Made by a program: the position numbers and the translations under genes
Origin: Thermomonas sp.
Lineage (GTDB): Bacteria; Pseudomonadota; Gammaproteobacteria; Xanthomonadales; Xanthomonadaceae
Length of the DNA: 64,000 nt
NCBI RefSeq assembly: GCF_029945965.1
Contig: NZ_JAQSDO010000002.1
Coordinates: 1-64,000, forward strand
Reading direction: 5' to 3'
Notes under the pieces: model-generated
Told to the model about the DNA's origin: nothing
What the model saw: only the letters and a program-made list of their open reading frames with translations
The model's database searches: none
Part shown: positions 747 to 59,171 of the stretch, one piece after another
Layout of the letters: every line of letters starts with the position of its first letter
How positions within the stretch are numbered: the first letter of the stretch is position 1

Positions 747-1418
747 CTAGGTCGAACCTGGACTTTCGGGACGTCCGGACGCCTGGCCGTTCACGATCAG
801 CGACAACTGGAGGCGATCCCGCACATGGAGTTTTTCAAGAATGGCGCCTACATGCGCCTTGACGGTACGCTCCGTAATACCAAGTGCCCGGGCAATTTCC
901 TTGTTGCTGGCCCCGGCGGCCAGCGTGGTGGCAACCTCTTTCTCCCGATCAGTGAGATCTTTAGACCAACTCGGCCTCACCGCGGCACGCCCCCCGCTGG
1001 CCTGCACCTGAACGCGGCTGGTGGCGCTGACGAGCCGCTGCATCAATGACTCGCCAATCCAGAGCCCACCCTGCAACACGACTGCAGCTACCTGAATCAA
1101 AACCTGAGCAAAGGCGTGTGTATTGCAATATCCCCGTGCACCTGCCGAAAAAGCGGCTATCGCCTCCTCATCTGTCGGCAGATCACTTAATACCACGCAT
1201 GGAACCAGCTTCAAACGCGGGGCAAGACGTTCCATCTGCAGAGCCACAGGCACGCCCTGCTCCAGCCGTAGCCAAACGAGATCTACCCTGCCTGCCCCCG
1301 AACCGGGTCTCGCGGCGTGGACTTTGCCGGCTCTTCCCGTCTTGAAAGCCTCACTCCAGCGAGGAAGCATGCGTCCGTGCGGGCAAAGAAAAAGATGTCC
1401 GGAGTCCTGAATTCCCAC
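747..1418 (-). CDS. LuxR-family (NarL-type) transcriptional regulator in the lap cluster
   Basis: This 223-residue protein has a clear C-terminal LuxR-type helix-turn-helix at about residues 150-210 (LTDREKEVATTLAAGASNKE, then ARALGITERTVKAHV). The N-terminal half (VVLSDLPTDEEAIAAFSAGA, then RGYCNTHA) resembles a receiver domain but lacks an obvious acidic pocket and phospho-Asp, so it may be a phosphorylation-independent or degenerate receiver. The start used is GTG at 1418; an ATG at 1370 is an alternative. It sits between lapC, 12 bases upstream, and lapA, 77 bases downstream, all on the same strand, so local control of adhesin expression is the natural inference. Confidence 0.85.
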   Translation of the reverse strand: MGIQDSGHLFLCPHGRMLPRWSEAFKTGRAGKVHAARPGSGAGRVDLVWLRLEQGVPVALQMERLAPRLKLVPCVVLSDLPTDEEAIAAFSAGARGYCNTHAFAQVLIQVAAVVLQGGLWIGESLMQRLVSATSRVQVQASGGRAAVRPSWSKDLTDREKEVATTLAAGASNKEIARALGITERTVKAHVGAILEKLHVRDRLQLSLIVNGQASGRPESPGST

Positions 1419-1430
1419 TGCCGTCTCGAT

Positions 1431-2846
1431 CTAGCGCTCTGTAAAGGCGGCTTGTTTTGCCTTCAATACAGGTTTGAGAAGATAGGACAGTATGGATTTT
1501 TGGCCGGTGATGATATCCACTTCAGCGACCATCCCCGGAATGATGGGCAAGCCCTCACCCAGCTTCGATTTTTCGGTACGAACACGCACGGTATAAAAGG
1601 TATTGCCGCGTTCATCAGTGACCGAATCGGCGCCAATAAACTCCAGCTTGGCCTCGAGACCGCCATATATGGAAAAATCATACGCAGTGAATTTCACCAG
1701 CGCCCGATCCCCTGGTCGCAAGAAAGCAATATCTTTTGGCAAAACTTTGGCTTCGAGAAGCAGGTTTTCCTCGAGCGGCACAATTTCGATGATGTCCCTG
1801 CCCGGCTGGACCACGCCACCCACCGTATTGACAAGAAGACGCTTGACCGTGCCTTTGACCGGCGACCGCAGGGAGGATTTATCAACCTTGTCCGCCAGTC
1901 CCACCCCGCCGGCTGAACTCACGTTTAGTTTCGCCAGGGTATCGGACAACTCCTTGCGAGCCTCGCTCTGAAAATTCAAGGTGATTTCCTGAATCTTGCG
2001 TGAGGCCTCTTCGATCGCCGACTGTGTTTTTGAAATTTGGGCGGAGGCCATTTCCCGCTCACCCAGAAAACGTCCGGTTTCCCGCTCCAGCCGCAGCAAT
2101 TCGACCTCGGATACAGCGCCATCCTTGAGCAAGGGCTTGGTGTACCCCAGTTCCCTGGCGGTCAACTCGTACGCCCGGGACGCCTGCTCCCTTTTCGCCC
2201 GAACTTCAACCAGTTCCTGCTGACGCTGGGCCAATTGCTGCCGGGCGATAGCCAGCTGTGCATTCAATGTTGACGTACTGGCTTCGTAGGAGCGGAGCTC
2301 TTCTCCGACTGTCTTCGGCGCCTCGGCAACGGCTTCAGGGGGGGGTACAAAAGCCACCCCTTCGGCAAGGGCACGAAGTCGGGCCGCCTTGGCCAGCAGG
2401 GCCAGGTACTGGACGCGGTTTTCCTTCACGGAAGAATCGAACCGCGTCGTATCGATGTTTACCAACACCTGCCCAGGCTCGACAACCTGCCCCTCCTGGA
2501 CAAGAATTTCGGAAACAATACCGCCATCCAGACTTTGCAGAACCTGCAATTGCCTGGAGGGAATGACCTTGCCTTCGCCTTTTGTAATTTCATCGACTTC
2601 CGAAAGCCCGGCCCATAAAACCGCCAGAATGAAAACCACGCCGAGGCTATTCACGAGCATTCTGGCTCGGAGCGGCTCCTGGGCAAGCATGGCGCGATCT
2701 GCATCTCCGCCAAATCCTGCATCCATGCGGCGATCATCCTCCCGCCAAGAGGAGAGGGTGCGGTCAAGTCCAGGCTGCAACATGCGCCGGACAGACTTCA
2801 GGCCTGCAATCAAGGGGCGAGCCAACGCTATCCATCGCGGCTTCAT
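1431..2846 (-). CDS. lapC: HlyD-family type I secretion adaptor (LapC-like)
   Basis: This 471-residue periplasmic adaptor bridges the inner-membrane ABC exporter to a TolC-type outer-membrane channel. It has a cytoplasmic N-terminus, one membrane segment at about residues 63-82 (VNSLGVVFILAVLWAGL), a lipoyl/barrel half-motif (GIVSEILVQEGQVVEPGQ), a long coiled coil (about residues 190-300) and the second barrel half (SLRSPVKGTVKRLLVNTVGG). Length and order are normal for the family. The ATG overlaps the lapB stop by four bases, so the pair is co-translated. No outer-membrane partner is encoded in the window. Confidence 0.93.
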   Translation of the reverse strand: MKPRWIALARPLIAGLKSVRRMLQPGLDRTLSSWREDDRRMDAGFGGDADRAMLAQEPLRARMLVNSLGVVFILAVLWAGLSEVDEITKGEGKVIPSRQLQVLQSLDGGIVSEILVQEGQVVEPGQVLVNIDTTRFDSSVKENRVQYLALLAKAARLRALAEGVAFVPPPEAVAEAPKTVGEELRSYEASTSTLNAQLAIARQQLAQRQQELVEVRAKREQASRAYELTARELGYTKPLLKDGAVSEVELLRLERETGRFLGEREMASAQISKTQSAIEEASRKIQEITLNFQSEARKELSDTLAKLNVSSAGGVGLADKVDKSSLRSPVKGTVKRLLVNTVGGVVQPGRDIIEIVPLEENLLLEAKVLPKDIAFLRPGDRALVKFTAYDFSIYGGLEAKLEFIGADSVTDERGNTFYTVRVRTEKSKLGEGLPIIPGMVAEVDIITGQKSILSYLLKPVLKAKQAAFTER

Positions 2847-5041
2847 GAGGCTTTCCCAATGCGGCCGGCTTTCAGCGCCTCGATAACCTGCTCATAGGGG
2901 CCATCGGCAACGATGCGGCCTTCGTCAATAACAATAATGCGGTCGGCCAGATCAAGCAGGGTATTTCTATGCGTCACCACAACCATCGTCTTGTGCTTGG
3001 CATAGCTGCGCAAGCGTTCCTTGAATTGCGCTTCTGAAGAAAAATCCATGGCGCCCGTCGGCTCGTCCAGCAACAACACAGGCGGTTCCAGCAACGCTGC
3101 ACGGGCGATTGCGACACCTTGCCGCTGTCCGCCGGAAAGCGACTCTCCTCGTTCGCCAATGATCATGTCGAAGCCCTGGGGATGGCGATTGGCAAACTCG
3201 ATCAAACCGCCCACCTCGGCGGCTGCCAGAATGGCACCGTCGTCGGCATAAGGGGCAGCGATCGCGATGTTGTCTCGCAAGGTGCCATAAAAGAGCATGG
3301 CATCCTGCTCAACGTAACCGACGTTGCGACGCAAATCCGCGGGATCGAGCTGCCGGAGGTCGATGCCATCCATGGTGATCGCACCTTCAGTAGGGGTATA
3401 AAGACCCAGGATCAATCTCTGCAGGGTCGTTTTGCCCGACCCGACCCGACCAATCACAACCACATTTTCCCCTGGCTTGATCCTGAAGGACACTCCTCGC
3501 AACGCTTCCTGCGTACGCCCGGGATAACTGAAGTGCACATTGTCAAATACGATTTCGCCAACGATGTCGGGACGATGTACGAAATTTATTTCATCGGAAC
3601 GCTCACCGGGTTTTTTCATCGTGTCCTCAAGCGAGGCCAAGGCTGTTCTGGCATTCTGGTATTGCATCAACAGGGCCACAATTTGCCCCAGCGGAGCCAT
3701 GGCGCGCCCAGACAACATCGTGGCCGCGATCAGGCCACCCATGGTCAGCTTGCCTTCATGAATCAGGTACACGCCTGCCACGATCATTACGATATTGATC
3801 AGTTGCTGCAGGCTTGAGACGACGTTGATCACCGAAGACGACAACAACCGCAGCTGGGCACTGACACGCGCCAGAAACGCGGCAGTGTCCTCAAGCTTGG
3901 CCTGCATCTGACTTTCTGCCCCGTGGGCCTTGATGGCCTCCATGGCTGTTAGTGTTTCCACCAACGTGGCATTGCGCATTGCAGAGGCCCGGAACGTGGT
4001 CTCGGAAAGCAGGTGCATCTTGTGCTGAACAACGTAGCTGTAGATGACAACCACAATGACCCCAACCAAGGGTGGTATGACCAGCGGCCAGGATATCCAG
4101 CCGAGAACAAGGAAAAACAGCAGGGCAAACGGGAGGTCAACCACCGCAGTGACTGTGGCAGATGCGATAAAGTCGCGCACCGATTCGAAGGAGCGCAGTG
4201 TCGCGGCATAGGACCCCACAGAAGCCGGCCGTTCGGAGAGACGCATCCCGAGCACCCGTTCCATGATCAGCGTGGAGAGCTTGATATCTATGCGCGAACC
4301 CGCGAGATCCACAAAATAACCCCGCATGACGCGAAGGAAATAATCAATGACCAGCACCAGCAGCAGACCGAAGGCCAGCATCCAGAGTGTTTCAACCGCG
4401 AAGTTGGGCACAACACGGTCATAGACATTCATTGAAAAAAGTGGCAACGCGAGCGCAAACAAATTGATGAGGAGCGCCGCCGCCAGAATATCCCGGTAAA
4501 GCGGAAACTGGTCGCGAAAAGCGCCCCAAAACCAATGCCGCTGGGGAATGTCAGCCAGCTCAGGTGTACGCTGATCGAAACGAAAGTTCGGCCGCGAGAA
4601 AATCGCAATGCCGACATATCGGCCAAGCAACTGTTCACGTGACAGCTGCACAACGCCCTGCCCGGCCTCTGGGAAAAGCAGATTTGCCGTTTGCCCCTGC
4701 TCATCCCAGCCCAGCAAAAGACAGGCCCCATCTCCTTCAAGGAGCAGGACCACAGGCAACAGAGCCGAATCAATTTTTTCGAGGGGGCGCCGCAATATCT
4801 TGCATGACAGGCCCGCGCGCGCTGCAGCACGGGAGAAGAGCGAGGGAGGAAGACCCGCTTTGGGCAGGGGAAGGCCGGCGGACAGAGCGGCCCGGGTACT
4901 TGGACGACCATGTATGCGCGTCAACTCCACCAGGCAGTCGAGCAAGGGATCGTGATGCAGCAAGTCTTCGCGCAAGCCTTGGGCCAAGTGGCTAGCCTCG
5001 CGCTTAGGACTGGTCTGCAATGGCACGTTCATGTCACTCAT
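2843..5041 (-). CDS. lapB: Type I secretion ABC transporter, permease/ATPase (LapB-like)
   Basis: This 732-residue ABC exporter energises secretion of the adjacent adhesin. Residues about 30-150 form a C39-peptidase-like domain, likely a docking domain without protease activity. A six-helix membrane domain follows (about 165-460; FALALPLFSMNVYDRVVPNF is a typical LapB segment), then the nucleotide-binding domain with Walker A GRVGSGKT near residue 533, signature LSGGQRQGVAIAR and Walker B VLLLDEPTGAMD. The ATG at 5041 is preceded by AGGAA; a second ATG lies nine bases in. It is the first gene of a lapB-lapC-luxR-lapA series on this strand. Confidence 0.93.
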   Translation of the reverse strand: MSDMNVPLQTSPKREASHLAQGLREDLLHHDPLLDCLVELTRIHGRPSTRAALSAGLPLPKAGLPPSLFSRAAARAGLSCKILRRPLEKIDSALLPVVLLLEGDGACLLLGWDEQGQTANLLFPEAGQGVVQLSREQLLGRYVGIAIFSRPNFRFDQRTPELADIPQRHWFWGAFRDQFPLYRDILAAALLINLFALALPLFSMNVYDRVVPNFAVETLWMLAFGLLLVLVIDYFLRVMRGYFVDLAGSRIDIKLSTLIMERVLGMRLSERPASVGSYAATLRSFESVRDFIASATVTAVVDLPFALLFFLVLGWISWPLVIPPLVGVIVVVIYSYVVQHKMHLLSETTFRASAMRNATLVETLTAMEAIKAHGAESQMQAKLEDTAAFLARVSAQLRLLSSSVINVVSSLQQLINIVMIVAGVYLIHEGKLTMGGLIAATMLSGRAMAPLGQIVALLMQYQNARTALASLEDTMKKPGERSDEINFVHRPDIVGEIVFDNVHFSYPGRTQEALRGVSFRIKPGENVVVIGRVGSGKTTLQRLILGLYTPTEGAITMDGIDLRQLDPADLRRNVGYVEQDAMLFYGTLRDNIAIAAPYADDGAILAAAEVGGLIEFANRHPQGFDMIIGERGESLSGGQRQGVAIARAALLEPPVLLLDEPTGAMDFSSEAQFKERLRSYAKHKTMVVVTHRNTLLDLADRIIVIDEGRIVADGPYEQVIEALKAGRIGKAS

Positions 5042-5481: not shown

Positions 5482-5508
5482 AAAACGCCCACTTGATGTG
5501 GGCGTTTT
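5482..5508 (+). terminator. Intrinsic terminator with perfect 11-bp stem
   Basis: AAAACGCCCAC and GTGGGCGTTTT flank a five-base loop (TTGAT). The stem has an A-run before and a T-run after, so it could act on both strands. It closes the 5079 transcript candidate and isolates the recombinase gene that starts at 5690. Confidence 0.8.
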
Positions 5509-5689
5509 GATCCCGGCATGATTAGCCAGGAGATTGGTTGCGCGGGCAAGATGGTTATGAGGCTACGCCATCTAGGAACGTATATTATGTTTTAAATAGG
5601 CTTAGAACGTATTAAATCATTGATTTTCTCTCCGAAGTCGAGCTGGAGCGATACACTTGAACGATGATCATCCACCCAGTTAAACCCAA

Positions 5690-8600
5690 TTGAACTCACG
5701 GAACCTGCTAGGAATTGCGCCGCAGGCACCCAGTGACTTGGACGAAATAGCGACCTTTGGGCTACACAAGAAACTGCACTCCATCTCTCGGTGGGCCCAC
5801 AGACTGGGCTTGGATAAAATCTGGATCGCATTACTCGACGCCACCAAAACGGACCGGCATCCCGACTATGTTGGCACCATCGTCCAGTTCCTCATGCAGC
5901 AAGACTCTTCAGCTTTGCTGCGTATATGGAGCGATGAATTGCCATGCGCAGAGGAATTACGCCGACTCTCTGACGCCTGCCAGGCTTCCCCATTCATTGC
6001 GACCGAATACCCGGCAATGCCATCCATCAAACAGGTCTCCCGTCAACTCACAGGCGGACTGCTGACCAAACTGCCCGCCGTAGCGCTAGTCGCTCGCCCC
6101 GTCACCGCAACCACAGACGAAGACCGGCAATGGATTGTTGGGTTACGAATGTGGGTCCTCCTTCAATGCATCAATTCGGTTTTCCAGGGTGGCCGTCCGA
6201 ATAGCTATTTGGTGGAGATAACCCAGAAACTGCGACTGGCTATCGACAAGGATGAAAAATGGCTAGGACTTTTTGCTCGCCTGCGAGGATCAACTGCCTC
6301 GGCAAATGGAATGACAAGGGACCTGACTTCCGCCTGCGAACGCCTTCTTGCCAACCAAAACGTCCCCGTCGAAAGTGCGGCGCACCGGAACCTGCTTTCC
6401 ACATTGCGAAATTTTTGTAACGGCAAAACACCGGTATCGGGAGAGGATGATGGCACAGAGGATCAGGGACTATTTCGAAGATTTCTGGATCAAAAATCGC
6501 AACAGATCCCGACCTCGTTTGTAGCGTCTGAAGTGCAAGGTGGATGGCGGCTACTGGATAACGCCTCACCGGGCCAAGACCAGGATGAGCAAGTTCTTAC
6601 CCAGAATTTTGATCCCCCAGGAGCTGAAGAGTCCATATTAAAACTGGCCATAGTCGACGAGGATCGAACCCCACTGGAACAAGACCACCAGGCCAAGGGC
6701 ATCCTGCTGGCCACGGCTGAGGACCATCAGTTTCTGCCTTTCAGCTGGAACCGCCCGTCCCCCGCCGAAAAGTACTGCCTGGAGCAATGGATTACATCGG
6801 CTTTGAAGAGCAGTGATTTGATGCTGCAGTCTTTGGCAAGTTTTGTGGAGATCGCCGCTAAGTCGGCGTACTCGCTGGACACAGTTCGGACCATTCAACT
6901 TTCAGATGTTCCTGCGCAGGATTGGTCCATCGATATAGACCGGAGGCACTTGCATCGGTTACCACCACGCCGATACAACGGCTGGCGGGTCACGGCGGAG
7001 GCCGCGTCTTGGGTGGAGCCCATCGCAACAACTTCGCGGATCATGCTCAATCCGGCAGTAGCCACCACCTTGCAACGATTGCGCGCCGATGCGTCAGCCA
7101 GCAGGCAGTTGGGGCATTTGTGGCCCATCTCGGTTGGCGATACCCCAGAAACATTATTCAACCGTATCTGTCGAGAAACCAAGGGACTGGAGCGACTGCG
7201 ATCTGGCATGTTGGCCCATATCCTCGAACAACGAGTGTTCGAGGGGACGGGTGACCCCGTTTTGAGCCAGTTGCTAGCCAGTCATCCGAGAACTGGATTG
7301 GGCGGTGCTTGTGCCTATGCCTCGTATAGAAGTGATCAGGTGCGGCGTCTGCTGACCAACGCAACATCTGAATCAACAAATTTCCCAAACGATCCGATTG
7401 AGCCCCTGTCGAACGCCGCGGGCAGTGAACTGTCGCCGTTGGACGCCGCGCTCCGTCAGGCTTGTCAAGAAGCGCTGTCCAAAGTCAATGATCTGGCCAC
7501 CCAGTCCGAGCAGTGGGTCGCGCACCATAACGCGCTCACCGCCTATATGGTCACGGTACTGCTGGCAGCGACTGGCGCGCGGCCCGTGAGCAGCCCATTC
7601 GAATCCCTGAAATATTTTGACTGGATTACGCACGCTATATATATAGAGGACAAAGTTTCATCTCAATTACACCAAGGTCGGCTCGTCCCCCTTCCTGAAT
7701 CGGTGGTTTCACTGATGCAGAACAGCTACTTGCCGCACCTGGCCCGACTTGCCGTCACTGTCGCGCAGATCGATGGGCCATTGAGTGAGGTGCTCACGAA
7801 ACTCTCTCGGGGCGTTCCCTGCGAACGCTTGCCCTTGTTTTTTCTACTGGGAAGGAGCTCGGAGAATGAAAAGCAGTTGCGGTGGATCGAGGTCTCGGAG
7901 ACATCTTTAAGTGCGCTGGAGGTTTTTTCGTGGCCGCTGCCCTGGAATTTGATGCGGCACCGGTTGCCGTCGACACTCAAGCGCGCCGGCCAGGACCATG
8001 AATGCATCAATGGGCTTACGGGGCACGGCGAGAATGGCACAGCCGCCTACGGACCATATTCAATGCGGATTTGGCACGCAGATGCCCAGAAAATGCGCCA
8101 GCCCTTGATGGACGCGCTGCTAAACCTTCAGCTCCAGACCCCGAAGATGCCGCAATGGCCAGCCTCTACGATACCCGCCCAAACCGGGCAAGCGCCCACG
8201 TCCTGCCTTGGAACGGTCTCTAATTTTGGCGCGATGGCGCGCACGATCCGGCGCAAGGACAGTCACAAAAAAGCCGCCCAACAGGCACGAGCCGATATCC
8301 TGGATTTCGTAGGCGGGCGCACGATTGACAGCTTGAGTCCACAGGAATGGGAAACCCTGAGTCAAAAAATGCTGCTCAACGTTGATGGGCGACCTCGTAC
8401 CCTAGGCACGCTTCGCTATGAGGCCTTGCAACATTGGATAGCCCAAAACTGGCAAGACAGCGGATTACGACCCCGCATCAAGCGGCGTTATATCCCATCC
8501 CTTGAAGAGCAGTCTCCGTTTACGGTCGATGCAATTGGATGCTTGGAGCGCATCAGCGCGTCACTTGAAAATGCGCGCCGGATACAGGCGATACTCTCAC

Positions 8601-11335
8601 GCCCTTCGAAACGCGAATCGCGGGCACTGGGGATTCTGTTTGTAATCCTGGAGTCCCGCCTTGGGGACCCGGCGGTGATCAAAGAGCTGCTACAGGGCAA
8701 AAACTTTCGGCTGGTTTTATTCCAGAAACGCTACTATATTGAGCACTCCCCTGGACTGGACAAAGCGCCCGACGCACCGGTTCGTCGCCATGCAGTCAGT
8801 GCGGCTGCAGCCGTACTGCTAGCCAGAGGCAAATCGTCAACCTACAGATTGGATTTGCGTCAGTGGCCGGTCGCGGATCTGCTACGGGTCATCGGTCAGC
8901 CATTCGGCCTGGATGATCGTCAGTTTGAATCATTGCAATCCTGCACTCTCGCCATTGCGATCCACGTGCGCCAAGCCAACGCACTGCAATATCCCGGGCT
9001 GGTTGCCGCCTATCTCAATGGTGACATTATTTCGGCTGGCCTTCATCACCTCGACTGGGTGCGCGTCAGTCTGGGCAAAGCAGTCAGCCCTGCAGCCCTC
9101 GCAAGGCCGGGAAGTGATGCCTCAAAAAGCGATACAGAGGATGAAGATGAAAACGACGCATTACCTTCCGAAGCGATGGATGAAGGCTACGTCGCCTGGC
9201 CCGACGCATTCATGTCGCTGGATCACGAAAAGCCTGCCACTCGCCCCGAAATGTCCCAGCTGCAACATTGCAGCTTCAAATTCTTCCAACATATACGCGA
9301 CGCGCTCAATGCCGAATTGGACGGCACAAATCCCTCCCGGCGGAATCTGGACGCAAAGCTGCGCACCCTGATCTCGGCGAACAAGGATCTGGTCAGCCGT
9401 TCCTGCCTGCTACTTGGTGAATGGCAACGCTCGCTTTTGTGGCGAAAAACCAAGAAGGGGCTGATTCGCATCCGGTCACTACAGCGCTACCTCAACGCCC
9501 TGTCGGTCTGCTTCCAGGCCATGGCCTATGAGCATGACCTGCTTGAATGCGATGGGGACGAGGTCACCGAGTTTTATCGAAAAGTAATGGAGGTCCGCCA
9601 GCTGGTCCGCCCCGGTCATTCGCCCGAAACAGGCGTCTTATCGCCACAGGCCACAGCAGCCGAGAAGATAGATGGTGATGATGCGGAGACTGCCATGCAA
9701 TACCGTTCGCAAGGTCTGGCGCTGCAACTTCTCACGGATTTTCATAGGCTGGTGAGCCGCGAGTTCGGTGTCGAGGATCCTGACTGGTCTGAGCTCAGCA
9801 TCAGTGACGCGCTGCTGTCGATCTCCCCCGGGATGATGACCGAGGCGGAGTATTGCTGTGCGCTCCGCACCTTGACCCCCGCGCCAGCCCAGGCGTCGCG
9901 AGAAGACTTGGCGCGCGCCTTCATCCTCCTCACGATCTATCGCTTCGGACTTAGGGGCGACGAATCTACCGGCCTGCTCCGCTCAGACTGGGTCGATGAC
10001 CAGCCCGACGCCATCGTGCTCCTGGTGCGTACCAACCGCTTTCGCCGCCTCAAAACTGCGGCGGCGCAGCGGCAAGTGCCTCTACTGTTTGTGCTGACCG
10101 ACCAGGAAAAGGAAATTCTCGCGAGCTGGCTGACCTCTTGGGAGGGTATCACTACGCTCAGTAGCGCTGGTCCCCTGTTCGCTGATAGGCAGTTACCCGA
10201 CAAGTTGATGAACGTCAAGCAGCTGCGACGTGACGTCGGCAAGATCATCAAGCAGGTTACGGGCAATCCCGATCTATCCCCGCACCATGCGCGTCATTCC
10301 TTCGGCAATCGGGTTGCCCTGCTGCTCATGCAGAGCGCTGGAAGCATCTGGCCTCACGCAGCAACCACCAGCCAATCGAACGAGGAACGCCAAAACCATG
10401 TGCGGCGCCTCCTGCTAGGTACCGACCAGGTCACACGGCGCAGCCTATGGGCAATTGCCCGATTGCTGGGGCATGCACACCCAACGACGACGGTTCGCAG
10501 CTACCTTCACTTTCTGCCGGATTTAGCGATGCACTATGTGAATCTGCCGGTATCCGACAAGCGCCCTGTATCCAAGCACCTCAGCGCCATTTGCGTCAAC
10601 CTTGAGAACCTGGCATTTACCGAAGACTACCTCCAGCCAATCCCCACAGAGTTTGAAGTGGCTGCACCGAGCCCACTCACAACGGATCGAGCCCTGAGCT
10701 TTCTGCACCTTTGCCAGCGTGGCGTTCAGACTGTACGCGCTCAACAGATCGTCGGCATTTCCACGGAAGATGCCGATCAACTGATTCACGGCGTGGAAAA
10801 GATAGACAGCATTCTCGCTCGCCGCCCTGCCATCAATCGCTCAATGGGAGGGCCTTACAACCTGCTCGGCCATATACCGCAAGCGCGCTGGGCCGATTTG
10901 ATTGCGCGCGCTCATGACGTGGCATGGAAACCGGAGTCACCAGAAAAATTGGCGATCACTTCTGACGAGCTGCCCTTGATGATCGGCAGCTCACGCCAAA
11001 TTGTGCTGTGGAAGCCCCTGCACTTCCGTTTTTTCAGGGAAATGGTGGACCTTTGGAAATTGGGTGAAGATAGTTATCGCATCCACAGCACCGTAACTGG
11101 TCAGGCCGCCTTGCAGGGCATGGCAGATCAATTTCAATTGCGTCTAGAGCCCACAACAGGAACTCAAGCTAACAAGTCTTTTCAGCAAATTGATACGATT
11201 ACGGTTGAAATTGGCGATTCTTCGATGCTTGTCCGGCATCGCTGCGCAGCACTTGCACAGACTCACGCGAGGTCTGCATTTCGCTCAAATCATGAGTTGG
11301 TGTTGCTCGTCCTAGTTAGCCTGGCACTGCAATGA
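5690..11335 (+). CDS. Giant protein with two tyrosine-recombinase catalytic regions
   Basis: This 1881-residue protein is several times longer than a usual 300-450-residue phage integrase. The C-terminal region holds a full catalytic set: R1422 (YRFGLRGDE), K1455 (RRLKTAAAQRQVPL), H1532 and R1535 (PHHARHSFGNRV), H1595 and Y1605 (LLGHAHPTTTVRSYLH). A second, more divergent set lies earlier: R631 (LLAATGARPVSS), K655 in a beta-hairpin context (EDKVSSQLHQGRLVPLP), R756 (NLMRHRLPSTLKRAG, with Asn where His is usual) and H779 with Y787 or Y790 (TGHGENGTAAYGPYS). It looks like two large recombinases fused end to end. Residues 1-600 are not recognised. The start is TTG at 5690, just after an in-frame TAA at 5681; there is no clear ribosome site, so the start is uncertain. 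A DNA-integration or excision role follows from the family; the fused architecture is what the sequence shows. Confidence 0.85.
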   Translation: MNSRNLLGIAPQAPSDLDEIATFGLHKKLHSISRWAHRLGLDKIWIALLDATKTDRHPDYVGTIVQFLMQQDSSALLRIWSDELPCAEELRRLSDACQASPFIATEYPAMPSIKQVSRQLTGGLLTKLPAVALVARPVTATTDEDRQWIVGLRMWVLLQCINSVFQGGRPNSYLVEITQKLRLAIDKDEKWLGLFARLRGSTASANGMTRDLTSACERLLANQNVPVESAAHRNLLSTLRNFCNGKTPVSGEDDGTEDQGLFRRFLDQKSQQIPTSFVASEVQGGWRLLDNASPGQDQDEQVLTQNFDPPGAEESILKLAIVDEDRTPLEQDHQAKGILLATAEDHQFLPFSWNRPSPAEKYCLEQWITSALKSSDLMLQSLASFVEIAAKSAYSLDTVRTIQLSDVPAQDWSIDIDRRHLHRLPPRRYNGWRVTAEAASWVEPIATTSRIMLNPAVATTLQRLRADASASRQLGHLWPISVGDTPETLFNRICRETKGLERLRSGMLAHILEQRVFEGTGDPVLSQLLASHPRTGLGGACAYASYRSDQVRRLLTNATSESTNFPNDPIEPLSNAAGSELSPLDAALRQACQEALSKVNDLATQSEQWVAHHNALTAYMVTVLLAATGARPVSSPFESLKYFDWITHAIYIEDKVSSQLHQGRLVPLPESVVSLMQNSYLPHLARLAVTVAQIDGPLSEVLTKLSRGVPCERLPLFFLLGRSSENEKQLRWIEVSETSLSALEVFSWPLPWNLMRHRLPSTLKRAGQDHECINGLTGHGENGTAAYGPYSMRIWHADAQKMRQPLMDALLNLQLQTPKMPQWPASTIPAQTGQAPTSCLGTVSNFGAMARTIRRKDSHKKAAQQARADILDFVGGRTIDSLSPQEWETLSQKMLLNVDGRPRTLGTLRYEALQHWIAQNWQDSGLRPRIKRRYIPSLEEQSPFTVDAIGCLERISASLENARRIQAILSRPSKRESRALGILFVILESRLGDPAVIKELLQGKNFRLVLFQKRYYIEHSPGLDKAPDAPVRRHAVSAAAAVLLARGKSSTYRLDLRQWPVADLLRVIGQPFGLDDRQFESLQSCTLAIAIHVRQANALQYPGLVAAYLNGDIISAGLHHLDWVRVSLGKAVSPAALARPGSDASKSDTEDEDENDALPSEAMDEGYVAWPDAFMSLDHEKPATRPEMSQLQHCSFKFFQHIRDALNAELDGTNPSRRNLDAKLRTLISANKDLVSRSCLLLGEWQRSLLWRKTKKGLIRIRSLQRYLNALSVCFQAMAYEHDLLECDGDEVTEFYRKVMEVRQLVRPGHSPETGVLSPQATAAEKIDGDDAETAMQYRSQGLALQLLTDFHRLVSREFGVEDPDWSELSISDALLSISPGMMTEAEYCCALRTLTPAPAQASREDLARAFILLTIYRFGLRGDESTGLLRSDWVDDQPDAIVLLVRTNRFRRLKTAAAQRQVPLLFVLTDQEKEILASWLTSWEGITTLSSAGPLFADRQLPDKLMNVKQLRRDVGKIIKQVTGNPDLSPHHARHSFGNRVALLLMQSAGSIWPHAATTSQSNEERQNHVRRLLLGTDQVTRRSLWAIARLLGHAHPTTTVRSYLHFLPDLAMHYVNLPVSDKRPVSKHLSAICVNLENLAFTEDYLQPIPTEFEVAAPSPLTTDRALSFLHLCQRGVQTVRAQQIVGISTEDADQLIHGVEKIDSILARRPAINRSMGGPYNLLGHIPQARWADLIARAHDVAWKPESPEKLAITSDELPLMIGSSRQIVLWKPLHFRFFREMVDLWKLGEDSYRIHSTVTGQAALQGMADQFQLRLEPTTGTQANKSFQQIDTITVEIGDSSMLVRHRCAALAQTHARSAFRSNHELVLLVLVSLALQ

Positions 11336-11346
11336 CAAGCGTGCAG

Positions 11347-12195
11347 TCAAGAATTCAACGGCTTGAACGGTACGTCAGGCAAGTAAGCATACTCGTCTCG
11401 ACCGTTCGGGCTGATAATTTTATGCGTGCGTACCGTGCATTCCCGTCGGTCTCTCGCGGCACGCGCTACCTCCACCAGATCGATCGGAATCTTTCCAAAA
11501 TTAATCTGAATTCGCTTTTCACCCGCTTGGAAAAAAAGCTCCTCCTTGTACAAGTCAAAGCCAATGAAGCTGCCGCAAATATTTTCTTCAATCGGATGAA
11601 AGTTTGCCTGGCTCGGCTTTGCACCGAGTTTGCCCTCGATCTTCAAAGGATGGCCCTCAGTCTGGACGTATACCGGCTCTGACAATTTCTTTCCTCCTAT
11701 CGAGCCCAGGGATTCTGCGACCGCTTGCTGAACCGCGACGCGTTCCGTCAATTCCAGATCCATCGAAGCAAAGTCATCAGCGTCGTTTGCTGCATCACGG
11801 GTGAGACCGGCGAGAACTAAGTCTTTGACTGTCTCTATCTTTTTATAGTCGATACAACTGTTCTGCGAGGCGTCTGCCCATAATTCAAGTCCGGGACTCC
11901 AGCCCGACGCTGCCTTTCTGATAAACGGCGCACAGCAAAGAAGTTCTGAAGGTACCAAGCCGGCCAAAACGATGGCGGCTTTGAGAGTGTCGTGGAAGAT
12001 ATGCAACTCCTTCCACTTGACCATATCTACAGGCCCGCGCAAAAACAGCACTGAGCCTTCGGACAACTCGGCAGACATCTGCAGATCTTGCGATTGAAGA
12101 AAACTCGCCAGCAGTACATGCCCCTTTAGACCACGGGATGCGGCATCTCCCACAAAGGAGGTGATTTTCGTTTTTTTTTCTTGCAAAGCTGACAT
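11347..12195 (-). CDS. Unrecognised protein convergent with the giant recombinase
   Basis: I do not recognise this 282-residue protein. The start at 12195 is chosen because GGAAAG lies seven bases upstream; an ATG 15 bases earlier is possible but leaves the ribosome site inside the reading frame. It has no signal peptide or membrane segment and looks soluble, with a hydrophobic middle (LKAAIVLAGLVPSELLCCAP) and a mixed C-terminal part (IQINFGKIPIDLVEVARAAR). By eye its base composition is less GC-rich than the catabolic genes to the right. The stop faces the recombinase stop with an 11-base gap. A partner role with the recombinase is possible but rests only on adjacency. A plus-strand frame over the same bases (11332-11682) was judged a shadow. 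Confidence 0.6.
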   Translation of the reverse strand: MSALQEKKTKITSFVGDAASRGLKGHVLLASFLQSQDLQMSAELSEGSVLFLRGPVDMVKWKELHIFHDTLKAAIVLAGLVPSELLCCAPFIRKAASGWSPGLELWADASQNSCIDYKKIETVKDLVLAGLTRDAANDADDFASMDLELTERVAVQQAVAESLGSIGGKKLSEPVYVQTEGHPLKIEGKLGAKPSQANFHPIEENICGSFIGFDLYKEELFFQAGEKRIQINFGKIPIDLVEVARAARDRRECTVRTHKIISPNGRDEYAYLPDVPFKPLNS

Positions 12196-12540
12196 GAGCA
12201 TTCTTTCCAAATAATTGTTGCTATTGATCGGAGAGCTGAACAGGCCGTCAGTAGGTCATCGACAGGGGACCCTTCTCACCCCTGCCCGTTGAACTTGACA
12301 AAACGAGTCCTTTCAGATACCCGGTAACGCTGACAAACGTTGATTCGTTCAACCTCTCAGATATAAGATACCGAATCGATGTCATTGATTCAAGTCAGCA
12401 CCCTGACTGCACTGTTTTTAAGCGAATGCGGTATCTTGGCTGCATATTGATCCGACCAAATCAGTCCGGACCCCCGGCTTTTTCCGACCCTGTCGACTAC
12501 AACCCTGACGACTTCAAGAGGAGAGCTTGGTGGTGGCGTG
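12196..12540. other. Intergenic stretch, no gene seen
   Basis: No coding sequence is supported here. A 9-bp inverted repeat, AAGATACCG (12365-12373) and CGGTATCTT (12429-12437), lies 55 bases apart. It may be a worn element end or chance. The last part may include more of the IS1380 remnant that becomes recognisable at 12541. Confidence 0.5.
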
Positions 12541-12827
12541 CAGTCCTGGGCCAAAGAGCGCCGCATCATCACGCGCCTGGAGTAGGGCGCACAGGGCAAC
12601 AACCGCGCTACATTGTGACCAACCTCACGGCAGACGCCCAAGCCTTGTACGACGAGGTGTGTTGCAAGCGCGGCGAAGCCGAGAACCGGATCAAGGAGGC
12701 CCAGGTCGGACTGTTTGCCACGCGCACAAGTTGCCAGCAGTTCCAGGGCAATCAGCTTCGCATGTTGCTGGCGGTTTTGGGTACTTGAATATCGAGCGGC
12801 TGCGCGCGCTGGCGCTCAAGAAAACCA
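12541..12827 (+). pseudogene. IS1380-family transposase remnant (C-terminal part)
   Basis: Pieces of an IS1380-type DDE transposase are readable across two frames: SWAKERRIITRLE then a stop, then after a one-base shift PRYIVTNLTADAQALYDEVC, then ENRIKEAQVGLFATRTSC and NQLRMLLAVLGYLNIERLR. The ENRIKE block and the preceding VTNL block are characteristic of the family. In-frame stop, frameshift and missing N-terminus make it non-functional. No terminal repeats were identified. Confidence 0.8.
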
Positions 12828-12828
12828 G

Positions 12829-12920
12829 ACTTGCCGTCTGGGTCTCATCGTTCCACCCAACAACACAGTCAGCGAAGCCGAATGGGCCAGTGCCATGCCT
12901 GAGGGTGTCTCACTACACAC
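12829..12920 (+). pseudogene. Asp/Glu racemase / arylmalonate decarboxylase-like N-terminal fragment
   Basis: About 30 codons read RLGLIVPPNNTVSEAEW followed by MPEGVSLHT, which resembles the opening strand of the Asp/Glu racemase and maleate isomerase superfamily (LGLIVPP...). It is fused to the IS1380 remnant on the left and cut off exactly by an IS3-family end at 12921, so it is a gene fragment. The intact racemase-like gene at 55549-56319 belongs to the same superfamily but is not an obvious copy. Confidence 0.5.
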
Positions 12921-13158
12921 TGAATCGCCCCAGGTTTTGAAGAGGCTCTATTCTCTGAGAGGATTGAGCCATGAAGAAGTCAAACAAGTTACCCCCCGAG
13001 GTGCGCGAACGCGCGGCGCGCATCGTGCAAGAGCACCGAGGGGAGTACCCGTCCTTATGGGCGGTCATTGAGTCATAGCGCCCAAGACTGGCTGCGTGCC
13101 GCAAACCCTCAATGAGTGGGTGCGCCGGCACGAGGTCGGTTCCGGTGCCCGCGACGCG
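12921..13158 (+). pseudogene. Left end and broken orfA of an IS3-family element
   Basis: The terminal repeat begins TGAATCGCCCCAGGTTT at 12921 and is nearly the reverse complement of the IS3-family end at 36822-36838. OrfA starts at 12971 ([19 protein letters not shown], then [14 protein letters not shown]) and stops at 13076-13078 because one base is missing. After restoring it, the frame continues [20 protein letters not shown], the typical end of the orfA helix-turn-helix region of this group. OrfB is absent here. Bases 13159-13276 hold nothing recognisable. Confidence 0.8.
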
Positions 13159-58136: not shown

Positions 58137-59171
58137 GTGGACATTTTCCTGGTGCGTATGGACTTAATTGAAATTCCGGAAATCGCCGACCGTCTTGCGC
58201 ATTGGCTGGCGGTGGTCCTCCACCGCCCGGGTTTGCGAATCACGTCGACGCGTCGGCTCACTGGCGGCGCCATCCAACAAAACTGGAAGGTGGAGACCAT
58301 CGATCTCATCGGGGAATCCGCATGGCTGCTGCGCACCGACGCCGACGTACTAGTTTCCGCCAGCGGATCGCGCGCGGGTGAGTACGCCTTGCTAAAGGCC
58401 ATGGTGAAAGCTGGTGTGAAGGTCGCGACGCCGCGTGCGCTGTGCGATTCGCGTGAGGTGATCGGTAGGCCCTTTTTCATCACCGATTTCGTTCCTGGCC
58501 TGGCCACGGCGTACCGCCTGGTGCGTGACGACAGTCTGGTGCCCGACCGGGAAGCGCTGACCTTCGAACTCGGGCAGAACTTGGCGCGCTTGCATCGCGT
58601 CCTCCCACCGGTTGCCGAACTCGACTTTCTCGCTCCGGTGGAGAGCCGCCCAACGCTTGCACAAGTCTTGCTACAGCGTGCGCATCTCGATGAAATCGGC
58701 GTCGCCGATCCCGCCCTCGAATGGGGCCTGCGCTGGCTCGAATTGAACGCACCGGGGAAAGAACGCGCCCATTTGGTGCATCGCGACTTCCGTACCGGCA
58801 ACTACATGGTCCACGAGGGGCGCCTGGCTGCCCTGCTGGATTGGGAGTTCGCCGGCTGGGGCAACCCGTTGGAAGATATGGGTTGGTTCACGGCCAAGTG
58901 CTGGTGCTTCGGCAGACCGGACCGCGCGGGCGGTGTTGGTCCGCTGGCCTCGTTCCTCGCCGGCTACCGCGACGAAGGCGGCGAAGCACCCTTGCCGGAG
59001 GAATTACGCTACTGGCAGATGCTGGCCCAGGCACGTTGGGCCGTAATCGCCCACTTGCAAGCCCACCGCCATCACAGCGGGAAGGAACGTTCGCTTGAAC
59101 TGCTGTTGACTGGTCGAATTCCGTCGCAGCTCAACCTTGAACTGCTGACCGCTGGAGGACGCGCTTCATGA
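58137..59171 (+). CDS. APH-type phosphotransferase (acyl-CoA-pathway associated)
   Basis: A 344-residue kinase-fold protein of the aminoglycoside-phosphotransferase superfamily. RITSTRRLTGGAIQQNWKVE is the glycine-rich region, HLVHRDFRTGNYMVHEGRLA the catalytic loop (HxDxxxxN), and ALLDWEFAGWGNPLEDMGWF the metal-binding segment. Relatives sit beside acyl-CoA dehydrogenases, as in ACAD10/11 fusions, where a hydroxyacyl substrate is phosphorylated. The start is GTG at 58137; GTG 58152 or ATG 58158 are alternatives. The stop overlaps the next start by four bases. Confidence 0.87.
   Translation: MDIFLVRMDLIEIPEIADRLAHWLAVVLHRPGLRITSTRRLTGGAIQQNWKVETIDLIGESAWLLRTDADVLVSASGSRAGEYALLKAMVKAGVKVATPRALCDSREVIGRPFFITDFVPGLATAYRLVRDDSLVPDREALTFELGQNLARLHRVLPPVAELDFLAPVESRPTLAQVLLQRAHLDEIGVADPALEWGLRWLELNAPGKERAHLVHRDFRTGNYMVHEGRLAALLDWEFAGWGNPLEDMGWFTAKCWCFGRPDRAGGVGPLASFLAGYRDEGGEAPLPEELRYWQMLAQARWAVIAHLQAHRHHSGKERSLELLLTGRIPSQLNLELLTAGGRAS

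Follow-up and report, generated by a model that had tools for sequence, protein, structure and literature searches.

Tyrosine recombinases (YRs) assemble synapses from subunits of the same kind, and it has long been asked what gives such an assembly its order. In the XerC/XerD system, two different YR protomers, both catalytic and each of about 300 amino acids (aa), occupy the two arms of one core site. Flp cleaves in trans: the tyrosine of one protomer enters the pocket of another. The integrases of tRNA islands that carry an Arm-DNA-bind_2 domain (PF12167) are single enzymes of 400-500 aa.

The known systems closest to the locus described here are the GInts and the SEs. In the available part of their description, GInts need ginABCD, GinC lacks the first Arg, and the loss of 2 or 6 nt at certain attB sites that had been cloned is described as unexplained (PMC5385486). 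The available account of SEs lists intA, tfp (a YR fold without RHRY), intB, and srap (PMC10214605).

Here we examine a gene in a 64,000-nt stretch of Thermomonas DNA (the window), together with its relatives on plasmids and in other genomes; loci are given L numbers and genomes G numbers. In our view, the gene's likely product is a genomic-island integrase made of two parts, a complete part B and a degenerate part A, and its relatives likely insert at tRNA anticodon loops.

The fused gene and its recombinase domains

The gene occupies positions 5690-11335 of the forward strand. It starts at TTG and encodes 1881 aa in an open frame without an internal stop, so the single long protein proposed in a preliminary description of this DNA is real. 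The source genome holds one copy. Similarity to recombinases in Pfam, NCBIfam, and PHROGs is confined to the C-terminal part, approximately residues 1336-1616. The chain divides into an A part (residues 1-860, 5690-8269, +; alignment A1, 10 members), which is a frame of its own of 683-880 aa in split relatives, and a B part (residues 861-1881, 8270-11335, +; alignment A2), which is a separate frame of 877-1149 aa in the same kind of locus.

The B catalytic domain spans approximately residues 1400-1610 (9887-10519, +) and is defined by Pfam PF00589 and by family conservation. The preliminary description had placed a full R-K-H-R-H-Y set at 1422-1605, and it is there: R1422, K1455, H1532, R1535, H1595, and Y1605, with a Phage_integrase (PF00589) match at residues 1407-1541 (E 2e-7). 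R, K, R, H, and Y, Y1605 included, are all kept in 22 of 22 B domains; the first-His position holds H in 11 and Y in 11. A profile of B searched against PDB matches YRs (best E 4e-8). As judged from its sequence, the B part is a complete member of the tyrosine recombinase superfamily.

The A part carries a second, catalytic-like domain at approximately residues 540-800 (7307-8089, +), delimited by profiles and family conservation and without a conserved tyrosine. Its set in the window is R631, K655, N753, R756, and H779. Among 23 family members, R631, R664, R756, and G778 are present in all, K655 in 22, N753 in 20, and H779 in 18, with W in the other five; this conservation places the second set beyond chance. 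Asn in place of the first His is a family trait (20/23). The counts hold when 32 further A domains are added, drawn from at most 49 loci (L195, L199-L227, L238-L256) with matches of at least 60 bits kept: in the resulting 55 rows, some of them gapped, R631 is found in 49/50, K655 in 50/52, N753 in 44/50, R756 in 48/51, and H779 in 44/49. The earlier proposal of a divergent set at 631-790 thus stands for R-K-N-R-H but not for the terminal tyrosine. Y790 was rejected as the catalytic tyrosine, as neither Y787 nor Y790 is conserved in the family. Position 787 is a gap in 6 of the 55 rows, and in the other 49 it is F in 14, W in 8, Y in 7, and other residues in the rest; the family alignment, over the 49 rows with a residue, contains no conserved catalytic tyrosine after the GH of the A domain.

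Relatedness of the A domain to YRs appears with profiles. The profile of 23 A domains (A7) matches XerD in PDB (chain E 5e-8, best single stretch 1.2e-5), and hhalign of the A and B domain profiles gives E 4e-6 and a probability of 87%, with R631 on R1422 and N753xxR756 on H1532xxR1535. The A profile also matches integrase-like frames of about 300 aa; these matches start ahead of the first Arg and stop shortly after the GH. Support from single sequences is thin: searched against four ordinary integrases and the 22 B domains, A7 reaches a best E of 0.003, close to the 0.02 of shuffled sequences. The full-length profiles A1 and A2 pair with a probability of 0.6%, the domain profiles A7 and A8 doing better. 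Pfam matches one of the 23 A domains as a single sequence, and NCBIfam models match none at E 0.01. We conclude from these alignments that the A part is homologous to the YR catalytic fold, at the level of profiles only. The matches to XerD and to the B profile bear out two YR catalytic regions in one chain. Separate profile searches of the two halves, as the preliminary description had advised, gave a Pfam match for the B half; the window's A half searched alone has no match in Pfam or NCBIfam, and it is the family profile that reaches XerD. The advised structure prediction of both halves was run with AlphaFold2 on residues 440-830 (5-row alignment) and 1180-1640 (4-row alignment); mean pLDDT was 37 and 36, which is uninformative.

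A further module precedes the A domain. A7 also matches XerA in PDB (E 1e-8) through two stretches that are out of order, one of them from A before R631; we accordingly do not credit this match to the catalytic-like domain of A alone, and the out-of-order stretch led to a module at residues 340-585 (6707-7444, +). A profile of this module from 23 loci (A9), searched against 177,635 PDB sequences, has XerA (E 4e-4) and XerD (E 0.08) as its top two hits. Both matches fall at the YR domain's end, with Y543 aligned on or beside the catalytic tyrosine of XerA. Against the B profile, hhalign gives a probability of 44.5% and E 2e-4 in the first part of the domain, and A9 hits individual B domains no better than noise. 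Within residues 340-585, Y543 and G578 alone are invariant (23/23), and the pocket His and Arg are unconserved. Y543 is kept in 47 of 48 rows of the 55-row set, the sole exception being poorly aligned. We regard the module as a putative degenerate YR-like one, corresponding to the C-terminal part of a YR and of moderate homology, that keeps Y543 and has lost the catalytic pocket. The preliminary statement that residues 1-600 match nothing is correct for the databases, but approximately 340-585 resemble the C-terminal part of a YR in the XerA alignment.

A thus seems to consist of a module with a tyrosine and no pocket, followed by a module with a pocket and no tyrosine. This is at odds with a first domain that is simply a weakened protomer: the domain has no tyrosine of its own, and A's sole invariant tyrosine sits in the preceding module. 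The double-recombinase reading is right in outline, and the first half is a degenerate partner. With a tyrosine-less pocket and an invariant Y543 upstream of it, A may hold a split active site, in which Y543 would be donated to the R-K-N-R-H pocket, as in Flp but within one chain, and which would be paired, and often fused, with a standard B. We offer this reading tentatively and hold it to be unlikely; if true, the asymmetry of the recombinase would concern its chemistry and not just its order.

A divergent family of fused and split loci

Profiles of both parts find A followed by B on the same strand in all 23 loci: three from plasmids, the window, and 19 strong matches from whole genomes. 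Locus L018 (genome G142), a weak fragment, and many short frames are excluded from these counts. The pair is fused in 14 loci and split in 9, which answers the survey for split versions proposed beforehand. In split loci, the second frame overlaps the first or begins within 4 bp of it (first-start frames). The 13 further fused loci include 12 of 1725-1893 aa and L017, cut by the end of its contig; the fused frame of L195 is 1898 aa. Ketogulonicigenium vulgare and Vibrio cyclitrophicus carry the halves on plasmids as two neighboring genes, labeled hypothetical protein or integrase, and the genes are likewise adjacent in Acinetobacter johnsonii.

Identity within the family is about 20%, and its occurrence is uneven. 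Among sampled genomes of the source's taxonomic family, 7 of 198 match, its own included. A relative in that taxonomic family is a Chiayiivirga MAG. In a phylum sample, the A-domain profile reaches E 1e-9 in 20/398 genomes (own included); in a class sample it reaches E 1e-5 in 87/369, of which 15 (own included) exceed 55 bits. The remaining class-sample matches are mostly 280-480 aa, by length like ordinary integrases or XerC/XerD. Both samples hold long frames of fused size and shorter ones of split size. A tblastn search returned 216 plasmid records, 212 of them from Acinetobacter, and none covers 80% of the query. When the full protein was used in a pattern scan of GTDB contigs, no relative appeared, because the family is divergent; phage records and IMG/VR contigs, scanned with two pattern sets, yielded none either. 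A-B is a divergent and sporadic family.

The tree comprises 22 loci, L017 being left out because most of its B is missing. Twelve fused rows stand apart from the nine split rows and the window (support 99/98). A branch with all 13 fused rows on one side has support of only 45/54, so that one fusion or two would fit; the window has a long branch and its placement is unsure. HipA-like genes lie a few kb from A-B in L002, L013, L014, and L056, one annotated and three recognized by similarity.

Islands at tRNA anticodon loops

DNA comparison of the loci revealed short conserved stretches upstream of A that are reversed tRNA 3' halves starting at the anticodon loop. They derive from tRNA-Met in L052, L053, L059, L062, and L063, from tRNA-Arg in L012, L013, L017, and L061, from tRNA-Thr(CGT) in L054 and L057, and from tRNA-Pro(CGG) in L055 and L058. 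The broken loop lies 157-303 bp from the start of A in these 13 relatives. The pattern was first spotted by eye and later scored against the 3' halves of the 42 tRNAs of the window's genome. Scores above 18 were obtained in 10 of 22 loci, all reversed relative to the gene, and in 0 of 22 in the other orientation. One of 266 control windows exceeded 18; its score, 40.0, is that of a reversed tRNA-Arg half in L016, about 2.9 kb upstream of A. Below 18 were L017 (15.0), L053 (12.5), the window (11.4), and L052 (11.1). L051 is outside the scoring, as it lacks upstream sequence, and the search found no remnant in L002-L004, L056, L060, or L014.

A prediction set beforehand was that a restored tRNA of the same kind, reversed, would be the first tRNA at the far end of the island. 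This was found in 7 of 11 loci with right flanks: Met in L052, L053, L059, and L063, Thr(CGT) in L057, and Pro(CGG) in L055 and L058. In these seven islands, A and the tRNA are 17-75 kb apart. The contigs of L013 and L062 end before any tRNA. L014, which has no remnant, has tRNA-Lys as its first tRNA, at 81 kb. In L015, an intact tRNA-Met lies upstream in the opposite orientation, and the sequence retrieved contains no partner. When all 23 loci were scanned with 3' halves, strong matches fell at island ends. Further matches were the cases of L014, L015, and L016 given above and a tRNA outside the L063 island, and L055 has an extra half at +51 kb. In the L055 island, two reversed tRNA-Pro 3' halves stand 7 kb apart, at 59099 and 66170, the inner one without a 5' half. 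The extra half suggests that L055 probably holds two islands in tandem.

L055 also bears on which half is displaced. Two congeneric genomes, G236 and G360, have a native tRNA-Pro that is 98% and 94% identical to the displaced half, versus 86% and 85% for the element-type 3' half (measured on the inner copy, whose 3' half equals that of the functional tRNA). The displaced half is nearer the native tRNA; therefore it is the host half that is displaced, and the element brings its own. L055 and L058 are 96.5% identical over 6.07 kb around A-B and 71% in their syntenic left flanks. One search found no empty site: two relatives of L055/L058 that lack A-B have an unrelated left flank at that tRNA. 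The loci are not all independent, since L055 and L058 are near-identical and genomes are shared by L012/L017, L053/L060, L054/L057, and L014/L061.

On these comparisons, the relatives read as tRNA-targeting genomic islands, with a displaced 3' fragment at one end and a restored tRNA at the other. A remnant beside A with a matching tRNA at the far end points to A-B as most likely the integrase of anticodon-loop islands. For the relatives, the advised survey of attachment sites is answered by the conserved kind of site in their islands. Among 29 frames scanned for cargo, L063 carries methylases, Z1, and DUF4420, L058 cation efflux and RND-type transport, and L053 AbiEii. In practical terms, the A-B family marks island ends that annotation misses.

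A different agent is possible, as most complete islands also carry an ordinary integrase. Those of L058 and L063 have Arm-DNA-bind_2, and a profile built from four proteins (of L058, L063, L015, and L016) finds one ordinary integrase in six of seven complete islands, always on the strand opposite A-B and split in two in L055; it finds none in the L053 island. The independent count is 4/5, because two of the six islands supplied rows of the profile. A PF12167 search of 16 A-B genomes gave 14 matches in 13 genomes, with two only in G286: in eight genomes inside the island of A-B or no more than about 7 kb away from A-B, and in five on another contig. PF12167 is absent from the other three, the window's among them. 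This co-occurrence would fit a PF12167-type integrase that is the true tRNA integrase, with A-B as cargo or an accessory at the island end. Position speaks against it: in the six islands, 5-30 kb separate the ordinary integrase from the right end and 15-64 kb separate it from the left end, whereas A keeps its short distance from the broken loop in 13 relatives across four kinds of tRNA. With the L053 island lacking an ordinary integrase, five genomes having theirs on another contig, and three having none, we judge this explanation very unlikely. The ordinary integrase may be a partner or a passenger of A-B.

It could also be a required third YR, encoded elsewhere in the island, so that a GInt- or SE-like set of one ordinary active, one large active, and one degenerate YR would act together. 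A single co-occurring ordinary integrase fits the composition of GInts and SEs, and it lies near B in L015 (0.7 kb) and L016 (1.3 kb). Mostly, however, it is distant from A-B, and it is missing in L053 and in the window's genome. A GinD- or Srap-like gene conserved beside A-B was not found either: no gene is common to the 2.5 kb on either side of the 23 loci, and leave-one-out profiles of small upstream frames in seven loci recovered no shared partner of this kind. We consider a requirement for a third YR unlikely, and A-B as the two-part integrase remains our preferred reading.

The window's own site can be compared with this pattern. A weak candidate for a displaced tRNA-Met-like remnant lies at 5535-5561 on the reverse strand, with the anticodon loop CTCATAA at 5555-5561; its score is below the 95% point of the controls (12.6) and is not significant alone. 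Beyond it, at 5482-5508, is a terminator-like inverted repeat between A and T runs; similar stem-loops were seen by eye at that place in L052, L053, and L062. A right end was not found: both assembled tRNA-Met (CAT) genes have ordinary-looking flanks, their frames being judged by eye, and contig C2 has no tRNA. Against 25 genomes of the genus, the left flank gives only short matches, mostly to an ABC-transporter gene. Three genomes of the window's genus (G430, G439, and G183) carry 28-30-nt 3' fragments of tRNA-fMet at places other than the intact gene, which suggests other elements that use that tRNA.

Mobility of the window copy is inferred from the A-B family. The copy might instead be a stranded relic without a functioning island, as it has no significant att remnant, no PF12167 partner, and transposase fragments just downstream. 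Yet its frame is full-length and retains the whole B set together with R631, K655, N753, R756, H779, and Y543, despite the low identity of the family, and a relic seems to us somewhat unlikely.

The surroundings of the gene are mixed. Convergent with it is a 287-aa frame at 11347-12210 (-) without a Pfam match; L013 and L063 have frames of 270-279 aa in the same place and on the same strand, with no similarity detected. A 116-aa frame at 11332 was dropped as a gene, by judgement, because the 287-aa frame covers the same DNA on the other strand. Positions 12426-13154 contain an IS1380-like transposase fragment and DNA that resembles a stretch near L052, and near 13 kb the GC content climbs from about 0.53 to more than 0.63. 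To the left of the candidate attachment site, 747-5041 (-) encodes a type I secretion unit: a LuxR-type regulator, an HlyD-type adaptor, and an LssB-type ABC exporter. Farther right, 58137-59171 (+) encodes an APH-family phosphotransferase domain, for which resistance is not claimed.

Deletions beside the loop and comparison with known systems

Alignments to intact 3' halves cover twelve remnants and exclude L017 and the window, which lacked a reference or a convincing match. Five remnants are complete (L013, L055 with substitutions, L057, L058, and L059), the completeness of L013 being by construction because it supplied the Arg reference. Six (L062, L063, L012, L061, L054, and L052) have one internal deletion each, of 4, 5, 5, 8, 9, or 24 nt. 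These deletions start 8-12 nt from the start of the loop, just 3' of it, with at most one other change. The last remnant, that of L053, is lost beyond the loop except for two or three bases. The references used for L012, L013, L054, L061, and L062 were taken from another locus or were of the remnant's own type. Either the junction is made in this form, or breaking one arm is how selection locks the islands in; on the split-site reading, the deletions could be a trace left where one junction handles its strands unequally.

In the relatives, comparison shows the host tRNA 3' half displaced beside A-B and the tRNA restored at the far end by the element's new 3' half; for the window we infer the same. 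As a hypothesis for the mechanism, one A-B chain would span both arms of the core site: B would cut as a standard protomer, and A would be a non-equivalent one. Within A, the phosphate-binding R, K, R, and H (Asn for the first His) lie in the domain that has no tyrosine, and the preceding module has a tyrosine but not those residues. Such unequal protomers would give the synapse a built-in orientation. The ordinary integrase of most complete islands would be a helper or a passenger.

Some features are familiar from single systems. XerC/XerD likewise place unlike protomers on one core site, and the A profile matches XerD, whereas A and B are large, unequal, and often fused. A sharing of the Flp type would fit Y543 and the tyrosine-less pocket of A. 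PF12167 integrases share with A-B the use of islands at tRNA genes, and indeed the same islands, but A-B is not detected by PF12167.

Similarity to multi-recombinase systems goes further. In the text available for Tn554-type TnpA/TnpB and RIT elements, YRs are abnormally long and adjacent YR genes co-operate, as in A-B; their partners have a possible catalytic motif, and that text describes no partner without a nucleophile (PMC3414803). A-B is not a RIT, as it lacks three consecutive YR genes all with the catalytic Tyr. In the literature searched, largely open-access and available in part, neither fused nor split A-B pairs are described at the anticodon loops of tRNA genes (PMC5385486, PMC10214605, PMC8138268, PMC3414803, PMC2864759).

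GInts, as far as the available portion of their report goes, resemble A-B in being islands moved by several YR-fold proteins, one without a catalytic residue, and in the low identity of members; they differ in having a four-gene operon, in naming protein genes as targets, and in that this portion mentions neither an A-B fusion nor a tRNA anticodon loop (PMC5385486). A test of the GInt order with the family profiles found no third YR frame directly beside A-B, save a weak frame 1.3 kb beyond B in L016; in L015 an ordinary integrase lies 0.7 kb from B. Without an adjacent ginABCD or a conserved small neighbor, A-B is set apart from the GInts by gene order and description. SEs, in the sections available, combine one ordinary and one large active YR with Tfp, which resembles A-B, and differ in the order intA-tfp-intB-srap, which is described with terminal inverted repeats (PMC10214605). 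Tfp is said there to lack catalytic residues, whereas A keeps R-K-R-H (PMC10214605). The intA-tfp-intB-srap order is absent from A-B loci, and A-B is thus distinguished from the SEs by gene order and description as well. What A-B shares with both is a degenerate YR partner, whose role this family makes testable in one polypeptide.
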